Assembly (NCBI RefSeq): GCF_900005765.1
Contig: NC_041689.1
Coordinates: 744,001 to 808,000, forward strand
Source: Plasmodium relictum
Lineage: Eukaryota; Apicomplexa; Aconoidasida; Haemosporida; Plasmodiidae
Reading direction: 5' to 3'
Length of the DNA: 64,000 nt
Shown here: piece after piece, positions 4,849 through 36,591 of the stretch
Layout of the letters: every line of letters begins with the position of its first letter
How positions within the stretch are numbered: the stretch's first letter is position 1
Made by a program: the position numbers and the translations under genes
The notes under the pieces: generated by a model
Database searches by the model: none
What the model saw: only the letters and a program-made list of their open reading frames with translations
What the model was told of the DNA's origin: nothing

Positions 4849-6909
4849 CTAGTCATAGATTATGTGTGCTTTACTATATATATATTTAGCAACATCATTA
4901 CTACGTAAAACTCCAGAATGATCAATTTCTTTGAAGTACTTAACTTCTGTGTTAGCAAAATTACTACAGGATTCTAAACTTTCCAGTGGTACAGTTCCAT
5001 CTCCTTCTCCATAGTAAATAAAAGGTTCCTTACTTAAATCAGGAGATTGAAAAAATAATAAATGCTCTGTGCTCTTTTTTTTAGTAGTACTATATATACA
5101 AAATATTGGAACACCATGATCCATTGAGAAATTTCTATCAGTATAAATTAAATGATTTTCATATCTCATTTTTAATTCTGGACTTAACAAATTGTGCCAG
5201 TTTGATAAAGTATATACTCTTAATTTTACATCCGTTCTGTTTGTATAACATTCTGGGTCGTATAGTCCACATGATTTTACTAATGACTGTATTTTTTCAT
5301 TATCTATTGGGTTATCATCTAAATTCATCAAAATTACAATTTGATCATGTTCAAAATATTCTCTATAAGGAATGAGATCAAATAATGAACCTATACTATT
5401 TCCAATAGCCTTCATCATACCTTCTGATATTGAAAGTTTAACAATTTTAGAAATGCTAAATGATATAAAATCCCTATTGCCATGAAGCAATGCTCTAATT
5501 GTTTTAAAGGAACCTTTAAATGGTGAATTAATATATATTACAGAATTCAAATATTTGTCTTTCCATTCATCATCTACTACTCTACTTAAAAAGAAATTAA
5601 TAAATAAACCTCCGAAACTATGACCTATTAAATTTACTTTTTTTTTATTTCTCATTTCATAATTATATTCTATATGTGCTTTAAGAATATCATATTTTTG
5701 CTGATATAAAGGATATCTCCAGTCATATGGTGCACCAATTATACTCTCTCCATTTATATAACCATTAGAGATAAAATGAGATGATATGACATTATAATAT
5801 TTAGTTAATCCTATACCATTATTATTAAAATAATCTAAATAATCAACTCCTTTAAGGGAACCATAGCTTTCTACTCTAATATTTACTCCTTTTTGGTTAA
5901 TATAAGAATTTTTTTTTTCATCATATATTAACCTTAGAGTATCAAATGTACAATACAAATTTGATTTTATAGAAAATAATCTACTTAAGCTTAACCATAT
6001 TCTAAATGGTTTTGAATTTAAGACATTTTTACCACAACTATTGATTTGTGCGTTCTTATATTCTGCAATTAGAGTACTTCCCCCTACTCCTGGAATTAAA
6101 TATGTAGTAGGATTATATATTTCAATATAATTTTTCTTATCATTGTCTTTTTTAGTTTCTTCTCTCGTCCATTTAATGTATCCTTTCATTTTATCATGTT
6201 GTTGTTCTTCTTTTTGTACACTATTTTTTTTTAAAAGTGCTTGTTTTTCTCGTTTAAAATTGTCTAGTTCAAATTCTTCATTATATAATTCACCTATTTC
6301 TCTATCTACTTCACCTGTTTCTCTATCTACTTCACCTGTTTCTCTATTAACTTCTCCTGTTTCTCTATCTACTTCACCTGTTTCTCTATTAACTTCTCCT
6401 GTTTCTCTATCTACTTCACCTGTTTCTCTATTAACTTCTCCTGTTTCTCTATCTACTTCACCTGTTTCTCTATTTACTTCTCCTGTTTCTCTATCTACTT
6501 CACCTGTTTCTCTATTAACTTCTCCTGTTTCTCTATCTACTTCTCCTGTTTCTCTATTAACTTCTCCTGTCTCTCTATCTACTTCACCTGTTTCTCTATT
6601 AACTTCTCCTGTTTCTCTATCTACTTCTCCTGTTTCTCTATTCATTTCTCCTGTTTCTCTATCTACTTCATCTATTTCTTCTCCTTTCACTTTTTTTATT
6701 TTCCCTTCATTTTCTTTTGAATATAATGGATGATTTTCTTCATCATTTTCATCAAATACTTCTCCTGTTGTATAGGAATCCCCAAATGTAAGCCTGTATG
6801 GTCCTCTTAAAAGAAAAGAAGCAAACTCATCTAAACTTGAATTTTTAGTTAAAACTAATGAACAATGAAGGAAATTATATAGTATGAATAAATAAAATAA
6901 AGTTGACAT
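4849..6909 (-). CDS. Secreted LCAT-like phospholipase / phosphatidylcholine-sterol acyltransferase
   Basis: A 686-residue alpha/beta hydrolase of the lecithin:cholesterol acyltransferase family, which cleaves or transfers acyl groups from phospholipids. A signal peptide covers about residues 1-21. LCAT landmarks are YLIPGVGGSTL at about 270-280, GAPYDWR at about 392-398 and the nucleophile elbow IGHSFGG with Ser431. Asp637 in GEGDGTVP and His664 in EIDHSGV complete a plausible catalytic triad. Residues 82-207 are an acidic heptad repeat inserted before the hydrolase domain. The Plasmodium orthologue (PL/PbPL) acts at membranes during liver-cell egress and passage; that role comes from recall of the family, not from this sequence. 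The start at 6909 is chosen because it opens the signal peptide. The enzyme is a host-membrane-active phospholipase rather than a classic toxin. Confidence 0.92.
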   Translation of the reverse strand: MSTLFYLFILYNFLHCSLVLTKNSSLDEFASFLLRGPYRLTFGDSYTTGEVFDENDEENHPLYSKENEGKIKKVKGEEIDEVDRETGEMNRETGEVDRETGEVNRETGEVDRETGEVNRETGEVDRETGEVNRETGEVDRETGEVNRETGEVDRETGEVNRETGEVDRETGEVNRETGEVDRETGEVNRETGEVDRETGEVDREIGELYNEEFELDNFKREKQALLKKNSVQKEEQQHDKMKGYIKWTREETKKDNDKKNYIEIYNPTTYLIPGVGGSTLIAEYKNAQINSCGKNVLNSKPFRIWLSLSRLFSIKSNLYCTFDTLRLIYDEKKNSYINQKGVNIRVESYGSLKGVDYLDYFNNNGIGLTKYYNVISSHFISNGYINGESIIGAPYDWRYPLYQQKYDILKAHIEYNYEMRNKKKVNLIGHSFGGLFINFFLSRVVDDEWKDKYLNSVIYINSPFKGSFKTIRALLHGNRDFISFSISKIVKLSISEGMMKAIGNSIGSLFDLIPYREYFEHDQIVILMNLDDNPIDNEKIQSLVKSCGLYDPECYTNRTDVKLRVYTLSNWHNLLSPELKMRYENHLIYTDRNFSMDHGVPIFCIYSTTKKKSTEHLLFFQSPDLSKEPFIYYGEGDGTVPLESLESCSNFANTEVKYFKEIDHSGVLRSNDVAKYIYSKAHIIYD
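6289..6666 (-). repeat. 21-bp tandem repeat encoding (V-D/N-RETGE) x18
   Basis: Eighteen in-frame 21-bp units encode the heptad V-D/N-R-E-T-G-E within the phospholipase (residues 82-207). VDRETGE and VNRETGE units alternate almost strictly, so the higher-order unit is 42 bp. Edge units are degenerate (MNRETGE near the start, VDREIGE at the end). The alternation suggests that amplification happened by 14-residue steps. The opposite strand also stays open across the block, giving a false Ser/Pro-rich frame. Confidence 0.95.
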
Positions 6910-26699: not shown

Positions 26700-28289
26700 A
26701 TGAGTCATATATATGATATGCTTGGTATTAATGTAGAAAAAATTAAGAGTAAAAAGAAGCAAAAAGAAAAAAAAAGCAAAAAAGAATTGAGCTTTTTAAA
26801 GGAGAACGACAACCTCTTTTCACTTCCTACTTCATCTAAAATTATAAATGTTATTATTAACATTTTTTTTTTTTATAAATAAAAAAGTGTTTCATTATAG
26901 ATAAATGATTTTTTTATCTCTTTTTTTTTTTTTTTTAGTTTAATAATAAAAATGTGAGTATATGGAGATTAGTTAAATTTAGAAACAAATGTAGATATGA
27001 TGATTTAATTTTAAAAAAATGGAAAAAAATTGGTTATAAAAATGATAAAAAATTATTAAATGAAAACAATATAGAAGATGACTTTTCATTTGAAAGATTT
27101 AATAAAAAAATAAATATTATGAAATATAATGATGAATTATATAATAGAGAAATAAAAAATATGAATATGAAATGGAGTAAAGAAGAAACTGATTATTTAT
27201 TTGATTTATGTGAAAAATATGAATGTCATTTTATAATCATTTATGATGTATATGATCATAAATATAAGAGAACTATAGAAGAATTAAAGGATAGATTTTA
27301 CAGTGTTTCTAAAAAGATTATTGAAGATACATATGATCAAAAAATAAAGTTAGAAGAGTCTAAAAAAATAAAAAATAACAATGATATTTTAAAATTAAAA
27401 GAAGGAAAAGCAAAACATCCCTTAATAAAATTTACATATAATATGGATGCAGACATTGAGAGAAAAAGTTTATTACATAAAACATATGTAGTGTCAAAAA
27501 AAGACATAATGCTAGAAGAAATAACTATAGAAAATATTAAGAAATTTGAAAATAAAATAAAGCATGAATTAAAAAAAGCATCTGATATGAAAAAATTGAA
27601 AAAAAAGTTTGAATTAACAAATGATGAAATTGTTCCAGTAATAATAAAGAAATATTCTAAGCATTTTAAATATATATATAGGCATATTTTTTTTTTTTTT
27701 TAATTTTAAGTATTTTATTACTTATGTTATTTTTTATTTTAGATAAATAAAATGGCTGAAGACGATAAAGAAGAAAAAAATGTTTATAGTGCTAGATATT
27801 ATTTTCAAAAACTTAAGATAGATGTATCTTATTTTGATAAGTTAGATGCATACTTGAAAGATAACAATATAGAAAAGCCAACAATCTATACTGAAAACAT
27901 TTGCTTTTTATATGGGTATAGTCACTATAATTATTTCATATCTATATTTTCTTTTTTTCTTATATTTTAATGTTTTAATGTAAAGTTCTTTAATTTTTTT
28001 TTTTTTTTTTTTTTGTAGAGTACTAAGAACTGATGTAGCAATATTACTGAATTTGAGAAAAAAAATTGAAAAATTAAAACAGGTGAATATTAAAGAAATA
28101 AAAATAAATATATTTAATTGGTACACTTAAATTTTTTTCTAATACTTTATCCATGCTTAAACATAACATTTATTTTTATTATATATATATATGTATACAT
28201 GTATTTTTTTTTAATAGGAAAGGGAATTTTGGAAAAATCAAGTAAATAATTTAGAAGAAGGATGTTTAAAAAGTAAAAATAAATTATAA
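26700..28289 (+). CDS. DMAP1: DNA methyltransferase 1-associated protein 1 / SWC4 homologue (5 exons)
   Basis: Exons at 26700-26849, 26939-27637, 27743-27915, 28019-28082 and 28218-28289 join in phase into 385 residues. Donors are GTTATT, GTAATA, GTATAG and GTGAAT, and every acceptor is a T-tract followed by AG. Residues 51-70 (FNNKNVSIWRLVKFRNK) match the VxxWxxxxFxN block at the start of the DMAP1/SWC4 core. A SANT/Myb-like segment follows, NMKWSKEETDYLFDLCEKY at about 123-141, ending DRFYSVSKKI. The C-terminal helices (YGVLRTDVAILLNLRKKIEKLK) match the family's leucine-rich coiled region. SWC4/DMAP1 is a subunit of the NuA4 acetyltransferase and SWR1 remodeller complexes. Exon 1 is the least certain because its donor is GTTATT. 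The A at 26700 was chosen as the start because it is the first in-frame ATG. Confidence 0.8.
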
Positions 28290-28907: not shown

Positions 28908-29804
28908 ATGAAATTACACGCAGAATTTAAACAAGATAGTTTAGACGATTTTTTACACGTCTTGAAGGGGCTTAAAGAATTTTCGTCTTTTGCTATAGAA
29001 AATTCTTTTCTTTGTTTTAAATTTTCAGAAAAATATTTATATATTTTTGGTAATGAAAAAAAACATGTAGAAATTTTTATAACAATTACTATGAATGATT
29101 TATTTTACGAAAATTTTATTTTGAAAAGCAACTCTAACAATGAAATAATTATATTAGTTTATATTTTTCAAATATACGATATATTTAAGAATATTTCTAA
29201 AAATACAAAGATTACTATTGATTTATTTGAAAAAAATGGGATATGTATCTTATTGTTCAAACATCACTGTAGTGTAACAGATGCTTTTAAGAAATATGAA
29301 TGTGGTATAGAAATTATTAATCCATCTATAACAAAATTTCCAAATATAAAAATGAATAAATATTCATTATGTGTTAATTGTAAATTGAAAAAGTGTTGTA
29401 AAATTTTAAACACTTACTCTAAGTTTCATTCAGATATAATTGAGTTAAATTTTGAAATTACTAATAAAAATTGTGATATTATTTTCTTAATGGATTCAGT
29501 AACAATGAAAAATATAACCACTCTGAAAAATAATTATGTTTTAAAAAATGTTATAGACAAAAAAAATAAAAATGAGTATGAACATAGTAATCAAAATGAT
29601 TTAAAAAAAGTTATATATATAAAAACATTAACCAAAGCTTTAAATATTTTAAACGAATGTAGAAATAATAAAGATGACATTGGCATATTTAAAATTACTG
29701 TGCCTTATAATAAGTGTTGGTTTGCTTTAAAATTGGGCCAATTTGAATCATCGGGAAATTGGAAAGTAGTAATTGTAATTACTGATCTTAATTTGAATTT
29801 ATAA
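28908..29804 (+). CDS. Hus1-like sliding-clamp protein (9-1-1 checkpoint clamp candidate)
   Basis: A 298-residue single-exon protein. The N-terminus MKLHAEFKQDSLDDFLHVLK, followed by SSFAIENSFLCFKFSEKYLYIF and SNNEIIILVYIFQIYDIFKN, follows the start of human HUS1 in order and spacing (MKF.A..., L..F..., L.ISPDKL.FI, NEIYLE). The next block, TIDLFEKNGICILLF, corresponds to the KIKLTNKHFPCLTV strand. The C-terminal half has alternating strands such as IIELNFEITNKNCDIIFLMD and ends with a terminal strand after WFALKLGQ. This suggests a PCNA fold of two domains. Hus1 pairs with Rad9 and Rad1 to load checkpoint signalling at damaged DNA. The match is by eye and low in identity, so a Rad1- or PCNA-like member is the alternative. 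Confidence 0.6.
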   Translation: MKLHAEFKQDSLDDFLHVLKGLKEFSSFAIENSFLCFKFSEKYLYIFGNEKKHVEIFITITMNDLFYENFILKSNSNNEIIILVYIFQIYDIFKNISKNTKITIDLFEKNGICILLFKHHCSVTDAFKKYECGIEIINPSITKFPNIKMNKYSLCVNCKLKKCCKILNTYSKFHSDIIELNFEITNKNCDIIFLMDSVTMKNITTLKNNYVLKNVIDKKNKNEYEHSNQNDLKKVIYIKTLTKALNILNECRNNKDDIGIFKITVPYNKCWFALKLGQFESSGNWKVVIVITDLNLNL

Positions 29805-30524
29805 TTTATATATTTATTAATAGACATTATTTTATTATTTTTTTTTTTTTTATTAATTTTAATTTTTAAATACATTTTCTAATAAAGATATATTTTTGAT
29901 TTATTTTTTTTTTATCTTAATATTTTATGCTATATAAAACTTTTGTTTTTGTTATTTTATATTTAATATAAAATTATTTAATTTTTTTTTTTTTTTAATA
30001 TTTCTTACACATTTTAAATTATTACAATATATTAAAAATTATTGAGTTTTCCTTTATTAAAAATATATTTTTTTTTTAAATCTTCATATTCCTTTTAATA
30101 ACTTCTTTTAGCTTAATTATTTGTTAATATAATTTTTTATCTTGTATTAAAAGAAAACGAAACAAAACAGAAAAAAAGAAAAATAATTAGACGTTAATAT
30201 AATCAAACAAAGCAAATGAATAATTCTATTAGAAAAACAAACAACTTTATAATAAAATAATATTTTTATAAACAAAAATTTATTAAAACCAAAATAATTT
30301 TTTTTTTTATTATACAGTATAAAATGTAAAAAAGGAGAATTAATAAAAAAAAAAAAAAAGATAAATAAATATAAGTGAGAAAAATAATATTATAGTCATT
30401 ATTCTTTCTCGATAAACTACGAATTTAATGTATTTTAATTACACAAAAAAATGAAATTCTTAGATAAAAAAAAACAAAAATTGCTTAATATTTGTTTGAA
30501 AAAAAGCAAAAGTATATATATACA
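29805..30524. other. Spacer between convergent Hus1-like and PrsW-like genes
   Basis: About 0.7 kb of shared 3' flank, T-rich on the left half and A-rich on the right half, as expected for two converging transcripts. No gene is visible. Confidence 0.6.
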
Positions 30525-32567
30525 TTAAATAATACTTTTAATTACAACAAAAAACATGAGTAGCATAGAAAGAAAACAATACATAAACAAAATTTTTAAA
30601 AAAAAAATTTGATAAAGTGGTACATTTAATGAAGTAAAGTATATAGAATAGTCATATATAGCATGAAATAATGAAGAAGAAAATAAAGAGCACAGTATTC
30701 CTATGAAATTTAAAGAACTACCTGAATAAAAAATAAAATAAAATAATTTTATCTTGTAATACTTTATTTTAGCTAATAAAAACATCTTATACTTAAAAAA
30801 TAATAGCTAATATACATATATAATAAATTTATACTTCTGTTTTTTTTACTTTTCTTATTTTTATCATTCAAATAGTTAAATATATTATATGATGATAATC
30901 CTGAACAGCACATATGAAATAATACACATATTAAATTTCTGATTGAAGAAAATAAAGCAAAAATATGATTTTAAAGATTAATTTATTCTGTTACTAAAAA
31001 TAGATAAATAACTATTAAATATGATAAAAAAAAAAAAAAATGCAACAATGTGGTAAATCATAAAATGTTTTTATGTTACCTTGATACTAAAATTGAAACA
31101 AAGTTTTCCTTTGTTGTTTGTATAGCATATAATAAGTTTTCGGTACTTGAAAATCTATTAGACAAAATAAGAAAAAAAAAAAAAAAAATTATTTAATATT
31201 AAAAAAAAATTAAAGTAAATAATATAAAAAAATAATGAAATATATTAATTCTTAATTTAAGATAAAAAATTCAGAATAACCCTGCTGATGAGCACAAAGA
31301 AAAAAAAACATATTCTAAAATGTCATTTGTATAAATATATTTTAGTTTTTTCATTTTAGCTTCTTTTTGTCTATCTTCTTCATCATATCTATTTTCAATT
31401 ATATAGGTGTTTTTATGAAAATATGGTATTTCTATATAATCATCTCTATTTCTTTCTATACTTCTATATATAAAAATCATAGGTATAATTTTAGAAATCT
31501 CTTCTACATATGCTATTATAAAAAAGAAATCTAAAAAATATATAACATATAATGTTAATCATAAAACAATAAAAGAAAAATTACATAAATTTAAAAAAAA
31601 TATCTTGAAAATATTAATATGTATATATATATATATATATTTTTTTTTTATTTTTACAAAAAAATAAAATTATTGAACACAAAAAAAGAAGAGATTTCTT
31701 AATTTCCTTCATAAAGCAAATAGAGCAAAAATAAAAAAAGTATAGTGTTAAAAAATATTCTAAAACACTGGCAAAAAAAGTGGATAGAACAGCCCCATAT
31801 AAAATCATTTCAACAATGTGTAAAAAATTAATTTTTCTTCGAATTCTTCTTTTAAATCTAATATTAAAAATAAATTAAAAAAAAGAGAATATAATAGAAT
31901 AAAATAAATAGAATATAGAAAAATAAAATAATTTTTTTTTTTTTTTTTTTACAAATATAGATAAAAAAAACTGGGAGAAAAAGAAAAAATTAAATAAATA
32001 ATTCCCTTGTTTCCATTTGAGGCATAAGAGAAACCTAACAAAATAAGTTTTATGCATTAAAAAAAAAAAATAAAAATGTAAACATATATCTAAATATATA
32101 TACTATTAAAAAAAAAAAAAAAAAAAGAAAATACCTACTAAAAAAATTATAGAAGAAAAACAGTATAGCAAACGAAAAAAGTTCACCAAGCAGAAGTATT
32201 TTACGTATTTTTCATCTTCATCTTCATAGTTGTCATTTTTCTATTTACATGTGTTTATTTAAAAAAGAATAAAAAAAAAAAAGATAAAAATAATAGATAT
32301 CATCTTATTTATTTATAGTGTTATATCAAATTATGACTTTATCATTTTTCTTTTTAAATATTTATTTAAAATTTTTGTTCATATATATGATTATATAAGA
32401 ATTATTAAAAATAGACATATGATTAATTTTGTACACAACATAATATAAAAAGTATTTTTGTTCACATATAATTGTAATTTATTTTCAAAAAATATATGAA
32501 GAAACATATACATTCTTATTTTTATCTTTTTATAATTATGTATATATACCAATTCTTCATATAGCAT
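30525..32567 (-). CDS. PrsW-family intramembrane protease candidate (8 exons)
   Basis: Minus-strand exons in order: 32550-32567, 32135-32240, 31953-32034, 31658-31857, 31281-31530, 31080-31154, 30850-30938, 30525-30721. They total 1017 bp and all seven joins keep phase, giving 338 residues with about seven hydrophobic segments. Landmarks of the PrsW (MEROPS M82-like) family occur in order. FSPSFFYLYLFKRR (59-72) is the first-helix/basic loop. VEEISK has Glu145-Glu146. DILEYVFFSLCSSAGFSSTENLLY spans 204-227 and includes Glu224-Asn225. SRNLICVLFHM has His252. SLFHAIYD has His293 and Asp297. These Glu and His residues are the presumed catalytic or metal site. PrsW cuts membrane-anchored substrates such as anti-sigma factors in bacteria; the parasite substrate is unknown. 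Exon 1 (6 codons) is the least certain. Loop residues 153-200 are charged and Lys/Glu-rich, probably exposed. Confidence 0.7.
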
Positions 32568-33323
32568 TTTAATATACTTTGAGATAATTAGTTTTATTTA
32601 TGATTATTTTTTTAGCTTTTTACATAAAAAAAAAAAAAGGTTTATTCTTTTTGTATTAAGCCATAATAAAAATATAAAAAGGCATATAAAAAAAAAAAAA
32701 AATACATTAATACAATAAATATATTAAAAATAATACACGAAGAAATATATATATATAAAAAAAAATATATGCCTAAAATTAATTGTATCTAATGAGATCT
32801 ATCTTGCATTAATATAGTGCACTTTTTTTTTTTTTTTTTAAGAAATACAAGTTAAATGATTATATAATTATACATATTCTTATTTTTATCTTATAAAAAA
32901 AAGAAATAATAGAGAATACTTTGGAAGCTTAGATTTTAGACAATATTTATTTATTATACTTCATGACTTTTTTTTTAATATTTTTTTTTTTTAAAGAAAA
33001 ATATATATGTAAAACCAAATTTAATATATAACGAAAAGTAAATAAACTTTAAAAGAATTAAAAACTATTCTTGAGATACCAACAGGAATAATATATTAAA
33101 TATAATTATTTTAATGAAATACAATATTTTAAAAAATTCATTTATTTTTCTTCATTTTTTTACAACATAAAAATTTTAAAAGCAATAGATAATAATGTAC
33201 AGGAAGTTTTTCTGCATATAATAGTAATGATCAAGTACTACAAATTTTAAATTGATATCCCTAACATAAAAAAAAGGAAAATACTTTTTACTATAAAGTT
33301 TGATATATCTAACTTTAAAAAGA

Positions 33324-33357
<34 letters not shown>

Positions 33358-34144
33358 CATTTGATAATACTTCAAAATATTTTAATTATGCATATAAAAA
33401 ATGTTATAATTGAAAATATAAATTTTTCTATTGTGTATCACATATTCAAAATAGAAAAAGAAAACAAAAAAATTAATAATAATATATAGAAACATTGAAA
33501 AAATTTAATTTTTTATTGTTTAAAAATAAAATGATATTCCTTTTTCTTAGTCTCTATAAAGCATAAGAAAATATTCCTAATAATATTTTGGAAGAATGGC
33601 ATTAACATAATTTTTTAAAAGACCATTATATATAAAATAATTAGAAACAATTTTTAGAAAAATTTATTATTATTTATTGTGGTTAAAGTAAAAAAAAAAA
33701 TAAAAGAAATAAATTTTTTTTGTTATATGCAAATTTTTTTATCCATGTAATTTAACAATATTAATAAAAATAATTTTTTTTATTTTATTTTACTTTATCT
33801 TATTTTATTTTTATTTATTTTTTTTTTCTATTTTATACATTAAAATTTTTATATACTCTTTATTTTATTATACTATATTTTTTTTTGTTATTCATTATCT
33901 TATTTATATAAAAATTATATTTTTTATTAAAAGGTAATAATTTATATTTTGAATATTCATTTATTGTATTTAAAAAAATGTAACAGAGAATACATAAAAA
34001 AAAAAGAGCAAACAAATAACTAATTTAAAAACTATTTAAAAAATTGTATACTTTATTGTAAACTCAGAAAATTAAATGCTAATAAAGATATAACTAAGTT
34101 AATTTTTTTTTTTAATATTTTTAAAAATATATATATTTATTAGA
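32568..34144. other. Divergent spacer (PrsW-like and CEPT promoters)
   Basis: About 1.6 kb between divergent starts, likely holding both promoters. A (TA)n microsatellite lies at 33326-33356. Otherwise A/T homopolymers only. Confidence 0.6.
33326..33356. repeat. (TA)n microsatellite
   Basis: About 15 uninterrupted AT dinucleotides in the spacer between the PrsW-like and CEPT genes. Confidence 0.9.
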
Positions 34145-36591
34145 ATGGGAATATTTTTGAAATTAAATAAAAACGTCTATTCGAACTGTAAATCTTATGT
34201 TTATAAAAGTAGTGGCAGTTCCATTCTTGATAACATCTTTAATGTGTATTGGAGTATTTGTGTCAATTTTGTACCTAAGGTAATAATTTTTTCTTTTTCT
34301 TTTTCTTTTTCTTTTTCTTTTTCTTTTTCTTTTTCTTTTTCTTTTTTTTTTTAAATTTTCTTTTTATTTTTAATTATACGACTATTCTCTTTTTTTTTTT
34401 TTTTTTAACATATGTATACAATTAATTTTTATTTCATTGAATATTTCTCATTCCTTTTTATTTTTACCTATCTTTATAATTCATTATTTTTTTTTAGTCT
34501 ATAACTGCTAATCTCTTAACGCTACTGGGATTTTTGTGTTCAACAATAGCATTTTTTCTTATGTATCTTTTTGATCCACTTGAAGAAAAGCATGATTATA
34601 TATTTATATACATAGGACTTTTTTTATTCTTGTATCAAGTAAGTTTTTTTTTTTTTTTTTTTGTTAAATACTCCACATTATATAAGATTTTTATATTTTA
34701 TTATTAAAAAAAAAAAAATAATTTACTTCTTTTTTTCATTTTTTAAAGACTTTTGATGCAATTGATGGAAAACAGGCAAGAAGAACTAATACGAGTTCAC
34801 CATTAGGACAACTGTTTGATCATGGATGTGATTCTATAACCTCAGTAAGATACTTTATTTTAATTTCATTTTATTTATTTCTTCTTTTTCTTTTTTATTT
34901 AAATAATTTATTATTCTTTTTTTTTTTTTTTTTTTTTTGAAGTCTTTATTTATTTTTATTGTTGGAAAAGTGGCTGATTTACCAAAAGGATTAGTTTACT
35001 ATATTGTAAATTTAAAATAAAATAATTGTTTTTAAGAAAAAAAAAGAAATTATAAGTAAATTATAGACATTAATATATCTTCTTTTTTTTTTATGAAAAA
35101 ATATTATAGTTATTATCATCGATTCACCTTCAAACATATTTGTTTTCGGTATTAAAATAAATTTAAAAAAAAATATTAAATAAATACTATATATAAAATA
35201 ATAATGCTTTCTTCATAACCACATTTTTTTTTTTATAAAAGTGGATAGAATATCATACACGAGTATATAACACATCTTTTGGGAAATTTGGAATAACTGA
35301 AGCTCATGTTTTAGTAAAAATAAAATAACATAAAATAAAATAATAACATTATATATGTATATATATATTTTTTTTTTCTTTTAAGGTTATATCTATGTGT
35401 ATCATACGTGGAATTAAAGGTGTTGGAATATTTAACACTGTCGTGAATGATATAATACCAGATAATATCCGGTTTTAAAATAAATAATTAAAAATTTATA
35501 TACATTTTATTCTTCTTAACTTAAATTCAATAGGTTAATTTAATTTTTTTTTTTTTTTGTTTAGCATTTACTTAAGTGAATATGTCTTAGGCTTAAAATT
35601 AAATTATCTTATATTAATTCCAGCGTCTTTTTTGTAATTAATGAAGAAATAAAATTATTCTATTTTTAAAACTAATTATATATTTTTAGAAAAATTAAAA
35701 TATTATTTTATAATTAAAATTATTTATTTCACTATTATTTTTTTTATTTTTTTTTTTTTTTAAGTATTCTGCTTACCATCTCAAGAAGTATCTACATGGG
35801 ATTGCAACATGCAAAGAAAATAAGAGAGGCTTTAAGTTATTATAATATATATTTATAGAAATCTTTAATAATTTTTTTATATATTTCTCTTTTCTAATAT
35901 TGATATTTCTTTTTTTTCTTTATAGGCCAATTAGCAATATTTTATATATATGTGTTTATGCAATACTATTTTTATCAATCATGTAAAAAATTAAAAAAAA
36001 AATTATATTAAAATTAACGTTTTTTTATTAAATATGATTTTTTATCTAATATATTTTTTTTTATTTAATATTTTTAGCTTTAACAGATAAACATGAACTT
36101 ATATGCCTCTTAATAATATCATTATATTCAAGTGTATATACTTTACATATGAATTTATCCAGTGTTTTAAAAGTAATTTCTATTTAATTAGCCTTTTTTA
36201 ATTATATCATTCTTTTTCTATATTGTATTTTTCTTTAAAGTTCACATATATATAATATTTTAAAAAGTATTAAGTTTTTATATTATTTTGTATTACAAAT
36301 ATTAAAAAATATTTTGTCTGTTTTATTTATTTTTCTTTTTTTCAGATTCAAATGGAACTGTTTCCTTCGCCTATTATATTTTATTATATTTCAATAGTTG
36401 TATTATTTTTAAAGCATTCAACAAGTCATCAGTTCTTAAATACTTTCATATTTAAAGATATATATATATTATATTGCATGTTGATATTTATCATAATTTA
36501 TTTGATTGATTATGCAAATACTATAATAACTAATGTTTGTAAGGAGCTAAACATCAACTTCTTGTTTAATAAAAAGAGAAAAACAAAATAA
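34145..36591 (+). CDS. CEPT: Choline/ethanolaminephosphotransferase (12 exons)
   Basis: Exons: 34145-34279, 34498-34638, 34749-34844, 34943-35005, 35110-35148, 35242-35313, 35386-35471, 35565-35633, 35765-35835, 35926-35982, 36078-36172, 36346-36591. They sum to 1170 bp and 389 residues, all joins in phase, close to the length I recall for P. falciparum CEPT. The enzyme transfers phosphocholine or phosphoethanolamine from the CDP-form to diacylglycerol, the last Kennedy-pathway step at the ER. Exon 3 carries the complete CDP-alcohol phosphotransferase motif DG(x)2AR(x)8G(x)3D(x)3D, from DGKQARRT to GQLFDHGCD (about residues 98-120). Exon 2 has [14 protein letters not shown]. Eight to ten membrane helices follow, including [10 protein letters not shown]...GITEAHVL (about 146-169). 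Donors GTTTTA (exon 7) and GTTATT (exon 9) are unusual but the only ones that keep phase. Intron 1 contains a (CTTTTT)n tract. Confidence 0.92.
34293..34347 (+). repeat. (CTTTTT)n hexamer in CEPT intron 1
   Basis: Nine or so perfect CTTTTT units inside the first intron of CEPT. The tract reads in frame with exon 1 for a stretch, giving a false Phe/Ser tail if the intron is retained. It may also serve as an extended polypyrimidine tract. Confidence 0.95.

Follow-up and report, generated by a model that had tools for sequence, protein, structure and literature searches.

Does a stretch of Plasmodium relictum DNA in which open reading frames are short conceal an intramembrane protease? The question is raised by positions 30525–32567 of a 64,000-nucleotide stretch (hereafter, the window) that lies within contig 11 (NC_041689.1) of the P. 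relictum genome, which totals 22.6 Mb in 514 contigs. A first-pass annotation of the window had proposed that eight exons in this interval encode a polytopic protein of the PrsW family. We find that these exons do form one gene, that its product almost certainly belongs to the PrsW family, and that the haemosporidian protein is probably an active glutamate-dependent intramembrane protease.

Gene structure

The eight exons lie on the minus strand, from 32567 down to 30525, and splice in phase to give 338 residues and a stop codon. All seven introns have GT...AG boundaries; they are 95–309 bases long, with a G+C content of 0.07–0.17 against 0.18–0.28 for the exons. The spliced product agrees at all 338 positions (100% identity) with a P. 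relictum record, P0001, entitled 'conserved Plasmodium membrane protein, unknown function [Plasmodium relictum]'. The eight-exon model is therefore borne out, and the landmarks had been numbered correctly (E145-E146 within VEEISK, ENLLY from 224, H252, H293 and D297). The gene is not 'hidden', however, as the same protein stands in a public record, and the longest frame had been put wrongly at 86 codons: the longest stop-to-stop frames of the interval have 95 and 93. We reject a pseudogene or chance frame on the identity to P0001, together with conservation over 13 species.

Exon 1 (32550..32567) carries the start codon and residues 1–6, which match P0001. It is followed by exon 2 (32135..32240; residues 7–42), with the acidic N-terminus and the first membrane helix; exon 3 (31953..32034; residues 42–69), with the second helix; and exon 4 (31658..31857; residues 69–136), which contributes a basic loop, the third helix and the beginning of the fourth. 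Exon 5 (31281..31530; residues 136–219) contains the EExxK helix, a charged insertion and the beginning of the GFxxxEN helix: the EExxK motif itself (E145, E146 and K149) maps to 31490..31504, as calculated by hand from the exon table, and the insertion, residues 158–205 (31322..31465), separates the two helices. Exon 6 (31080..31154; residues 219–244) runs through GFSSTENLLY as far as R244, and exon 7 (30850..30938; residues 244–274) bears the R-x7-H helix, the codon of H252 being at 30914-30916. Lastly, exon 8 (30525..30721; residue 274 to the stop) encodes the HxxxD helix, with H293 at 30663-30665 and D297 at 30651-30653, and the last helix. The exon 5 donor is GTTATT, as opposed to GTA at the six other donors; it is the sole GT donor among eleven exon 5 ends tried, and the junction yields SSAGFSSTEN, in which SAGFSS is conserved in the 13-row haemosporidian alignment. 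Rfam gave no match within 29800-34500.

Membership of the PrsW family

Against Pfam, P0001 matches PF13367 (PrsW-protease) over residues 83–317 with 51.6 bits (cut-off 23.5; E 1.1e-13); at E 1 it has just one further row, to DUF2254, which falls below its own cut-off. PF13367 is also the precomputed label of 15 of 15 homologues, some of which are entitled 'protease' or 'protease, putative'. Thirteen of them form our alignment A2, which excludes P0014, a second P. knowlesi record with a differing N-terminal part, and P0015, which is without the EExxK segment and has extra residues. Each of the 13 intact proteins, P0001 included, matches PF13367 at E 0.1, the family cut-off having been checked individually for P0001, P0002, P0008 and P0011, and the other Pfam rows among them are weak (one protein with DUF2254, two with DUF6750 and one with PF22343; best E 0.038–0.063). 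Type II CAAX (PF02517), Aph-1 (PF06105) and TMEM147 (PF09767) give no row for P0001 at E 1, nor for any of the 13 at E 0.1. The sole NCBIfam row is a sub-threshold one to MecD (E 0.18); there was no PDB match by sequence and no PHROG match, and two scans of viral contigs found no relative.

A search of a prokaryote genome collection with the haemosporidian alignment returned one locus (L003), in a metagenome-assembled genome (MAG) of the Muribaculaceae, with 26% identity over residues 199–297. Its 268-residue product, P0016, itself matches PF13367 with 110 bits, and such matches occur in 11 of 61 genomes of the same phylum. A bacterial set of 11 proteins was made up from P0016 and ten of 14 PF13367 places, omitting L004 (the same gene as P0016), L014 (below cut-off), and L012 and L017 (seemingly one gene in two pieces). 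Comparison of the 13-protein haemosporidian profile with the 11-protein bacterial one gave a probability of 96.5 and an E-value of 8.9e-10, with the motifs in register; moreover, the bacterial profile scored the 13 haemosporidian proteins at 31.2–46.4 bits, whereas the highest score among 2,600 locally shuffled decoys was 13.4. The PrsW relationship that the first-pass annotation expected of a profile–profile search was thus found, and its family assignment stands, on the Pfam match above threshold, the bacterial profile match and the motif conservation described below.

Conserved motifs

All 13 intact haemosporidian proteins, P0001 among them, share E145, E146, K149, E224, N225, Y228, R244, H252 and H293, and D297 is kept in 12, being N in P. 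gallinaceum; the glutamate pair and the two histidines singled out in the first-pass annotation are accordingly invariant across these orthologues. As 82 of the 338 columns are invariant, the hypergeometric probability for nine of nine motif residues is 2e-6, a value that serves as a guide only because alignment columns are not independent. EExxK is also retained in P0014. The bacterial proteins present the same picture: EExxK, GFxxxEN, R-x7-H and the histidine of the last motif occur in 11 of 11, with the internal spacing of the parasite motifs; the final residue of that motif is D in four and N in seven, and the distance from the N of GFxxxEN to the R is 19 in P0001 and 15–21 in the bacteria. 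H252, within R-x7-H, is an extra histidine without counterpart in type II CAAX proteases, and it is present in all 13 haemosporidian and all 11 bacterial proteins; the EExxxR of type II CAAX proteases is not found, since its Arg would fall at residue 150, a position occupied by I, L or F among the 13 intact proteins.

Topology and predicted fold

The protein would cross the membrane in eight helices, leaving its N- and C-termini and the charged insertion on the cytosolic side; a basic loop precedes helix 3. Two structural models were compared with solved structures using Foldseek, and in both APH-1 was the top neighbour, a result that places the predicted fold in the PrsW/APH-1 superfamily. 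Chain 6 of entry 7tm3, the title of which describes a multipass translocon, was also among the best neighbours, and we take this chain to be TMEM147; many lower-ranked neighbours are transporters. There was no viral fold at E 0.001, and Rce1 is not among the VIA rows listed, which does not exclude it.

Genomic context and the P. falciparum orthologue

The first-pass annotation had set the gene between Hus1-like and CEPT genes. The latter lies upstream: a plus-strand exon at 34722..34937 bears the CDP-alcohol phosphotransferase motif (PF01066, 35.1 bits). The downstream neighbour (28908..29804, plus strand) can be called only Hus1 'like', as its PF04005 score of 23.9 bits is below the cut-off of 27. 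Beyond it lies a SANT/DAMP1 gene (26954-27703; PF16282, 89.6 bits). In P. falciparum, CEPT is PF3D7_0628300 (PMC8017609) and the EAF2/SWC4 homologue is PF3D7_0628600 (PMC11036802); with numbering by hundreds and a conserved gene order, two genes would fit between them, and the order CEPT, PrsW-family gene, Hus1-like gene, EAF2 would make PF3D7_0628400 the P. falciparum orthologue. This assignment is by synteny and holds if the gene order and the numbering are as supposed.

Elsewhere in the window, a T-rich stretch beside the CEPT exons (34279-34425) reads as poly-Phe in one frame, and an LCAT-family gene (4849-6909, minus strand; PF02450, 155 bits) contains an in-frame repeat array (6282-6679; 42-base unit, 9.5 copies, 94% matches) that encodes (D/N)RETGEV units. 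The short exons of the PrsW-family gene explain why a six-frame search of the P. relictum genome with PF13367 gave no match. Searches of the same genome for M48 and M50 families were likewise empty, and intron-split genes escape such searches; a site-2 protease is known from Plasmodium, according to the title of a paper. Several contigs yielded, in all, eight rhomboid matches and one signal-peptide-peptidase match, the latter read across stops; these belong to further classes of intramembrane protease in the parasite.

Proposed mechanism and its alternatives

In an active enzyme, E145 and E146 in helix 4 would converge mid-membrane with H252 and H293 in helices 6 and 7; a glutamate would activate water, assisted by the histidines and D297, and a membrane-anchored substrate would be cleaved inside or beside its own membrane segment. 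The likeliest site is a secretory-pathway membrane (endoplasmic reticulum or Golgi), since the N-terminus is short and acidic, and unlike a plastid leader. Proteolytic activity of this kind would give the parasite a further class of regulated intramembrane proteolysis, a step on which the first-pass annotation goes too far. A fuller version, in which an active secretory-pathway enzyme uses its cytosolic insertion to gate or recruit the substrate, and serves either as a parasite-specific enzyme of regulated intramembrane proteolysis or as a cryptic replacement for Ste24/Rce1, is doubtful as a whole.

Several observations weigh against an active protease of this architecture. Hydropathy alone does not pick out every helix, the peak for helix 5 being just 0.8 in a 19-residue window. 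The confidence of the two models is moderate (predicted local distance difference test score, pLDDT, 68 and 70; predicted template modelling score, pTM, 0.71 and 0.72), their best Foldseek E-values, 1.4 and 0.22, are not significant, and the closest solved folds are not, to our knowledge, those of proteases. In the reverse profile search, six of the 11 bacterial proteins (10.1–19.4 bits) exceeded the best decoy (8.9) and five did not. Additionally, one of the 15 records, P0015, is without the whole EExxK segment. This record is PFAG_01517 of P. falciparum Santa Lucia; its extra residues resemble intron read-through, and its gene model is probably faulty.

If the fold were present without catalysis, the protein could be a scaffold or chaperone, like APH-1 in gamma-secretase or TMEM147 in the multipass translocon, and the leading structural neighbours, APH-1 and chain 6 of 7tm3, speak for such a role. 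We nevertheless consider it unlikely: none of the 13 intact proteins departs from E145, E146, H252 and H293 at the PrsW catalytic positions, none has a match to the Aph-1 or TMEM147 profile at the threshold given above, and the genome carries a separate PF09767 match on another contig (contig 8, 171871-172835; L021), in two pieces, one of them above the cut-off. On that match we reject a TMEM147 orthologue in particular. A search for Aph-1 found no match anywhere, controls included, and so carries no weight.

The protein might instead be the missing CAAX endoprotease of Plasmodium, replacing Ste24/Rce1 in the trimming of prenylated proteins, an idea encouraged by the fold core common to PrsW and type II CAAX proteases (PMC4602095) and by the lack of an M48 match in the genome, though that search is blind to intron-split genes. 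Its signature is, however, the PrsW one, EExxK with the extra histidine, rather than EExxxR; PF3D7_0628400 is predicted to be non-essential in blood stages in a 2022 list (PMC9263188), and Malassezia PrsW has been argued not to be CAAX-related because Rce1 is present there (PMC4634964). Taken together, we regard this role as improbable. Least credible by far is a transporter: Table 1 of PMC9263188 places PF3D7_0628400 among known or putative transport proteins, under Transporter Classification (TC) 9.B.14, according to methods in which unknown families were assigned via the top TCDB BLAST hit. We reject this identity, as the Pfam match is to PrsW with no transporter family among the rows at E 1, conservation centres on the protease motifs, and APH-1 is first by fold, transporters occupying many lower rows.

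Status in the literature

The first-pass annotation knew of no PrsW-type protease described in malaria parasites, which goes too far: PF13367 is already assigned in Plasmodium in databases, and a 2015 study of Malassezia (PMC4634964) mentions the family in a few parasitic protists, namely, Toxoplasma, Neospora, Cryptosporidium and Plasmodium. A Cryptosporidium hominis gene with PF13367.1 appears in a table of PMC4637869. The assignment is therefore already known, having been printed in passing, and its novelty is limited. Beyond the Haemosporidia, a search with the 13-row alignment (scoring confined to the 7994 candidates with the most shared words) and one with a masked core recovered the same 15 proteins only, so the Toxoplasma and Cryptosporidium relatives of PMC4634964 and PMC4637869 are not confirmed here.

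We found no malaria-focused paper that combines Plasmodium with PrsW, and no functional study among open-licence papers, supplements aside; a study published elsewhere may have been missed. Neither M82 nor PrsW was found as a term in the main text of four papers on apicomplexan proteases (PMC3178910, PMC3287505, PMC9965338 and PMC5939537), one of which reports a P. falciparum orthologue of the only glutamic protease (family G5) of piroplasms; we take this to be AMR4. PF3D7_0628400 also marks the edge of a 17-gene selection window (PMC6202401).

What we add is modest: an independent confirmation of membership, a description of the insertion and the additional helix, and the disagreement with the listing as a transporter. 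Even so, a eukaryotic PrsW protein with its active-site residues kept in 13 haemosporidian species, members of a lineage of medical importance, is a candidate intramembrane protease that seems not to have been studied, and correcting the transporter filing would direct tests at the right activity. The protein bears on the question of a cryptic CAAX protease in Plasmodium, as posed in PMC7542359. It bears, too, on the relation of APH-1-type scaffolds to proteases.

Comparison with known systems

The family (PF13367; MEROPS M82) is known chiefly from bacteria, one example being PrsW of Bacillus subtilis, which cuts the anti-sigma factor RsiW. The parasite protein resembles bacterial PrsW in its profile and in having EExxK, GFxxxEN, R-x7-H and HxxxD/N in the same order with the same internal spacing, but differs in two respects. 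Between the first two motif helices it carries a charged insertion, some 40 residues long, so that the spacing from the K to the G of these motifs is 70 in P0001 as against 29–30 in 11 of 11 bacteria; pLDDT is <50 over residues 163–203, and mean identity to P0001 is 31% in the insertion compared with 62–81% for helices 3 to 8. There is also one extra N-terminal helix relative to the seven bacterial proteins judged by eye, and residues 1–54 are unpaired in the profile alignment with the bacteria. Although an E-P pair is invariant in the five bacterial proteins of alignment A4 and missing from the parasite loop before helix 3, it is also missing from bacterial L013 and L016, and its absence does not, therefore, set the parasite protein apart.

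APH-1 and TMEM147 are subunits for which we know of no protease activity of their own, and the parasite protein has no sequence match to either family. The type II CAAX, or CPBP, proteases (Rce1; in Plasmodium, AMR4, PF3D7_0913500) have a related fold core, the glutamate pair and a distal histidine (PMC4602095); in the models given there, PrsW has EExxK, HxxxD and an extra histidine, whereas type II CAAX proteases have EExxxR and HxxxN, and the parasite protein follows the former in its EExxK and its extra histidine. The two genes are distinct, because the Rce1-like/CPBP match of the P. relictum genome (62 bits; L002), presumably the AMR4 orthologue, lies on contig 7 (459659-459919). Finally, the PrsW-like proteases of Malassezia are also PF13367 members from a eukaryote and have EE and His motifs, but it has been suggested that they are confined to one species cluster and were acquired horizontally (PMC4634964).
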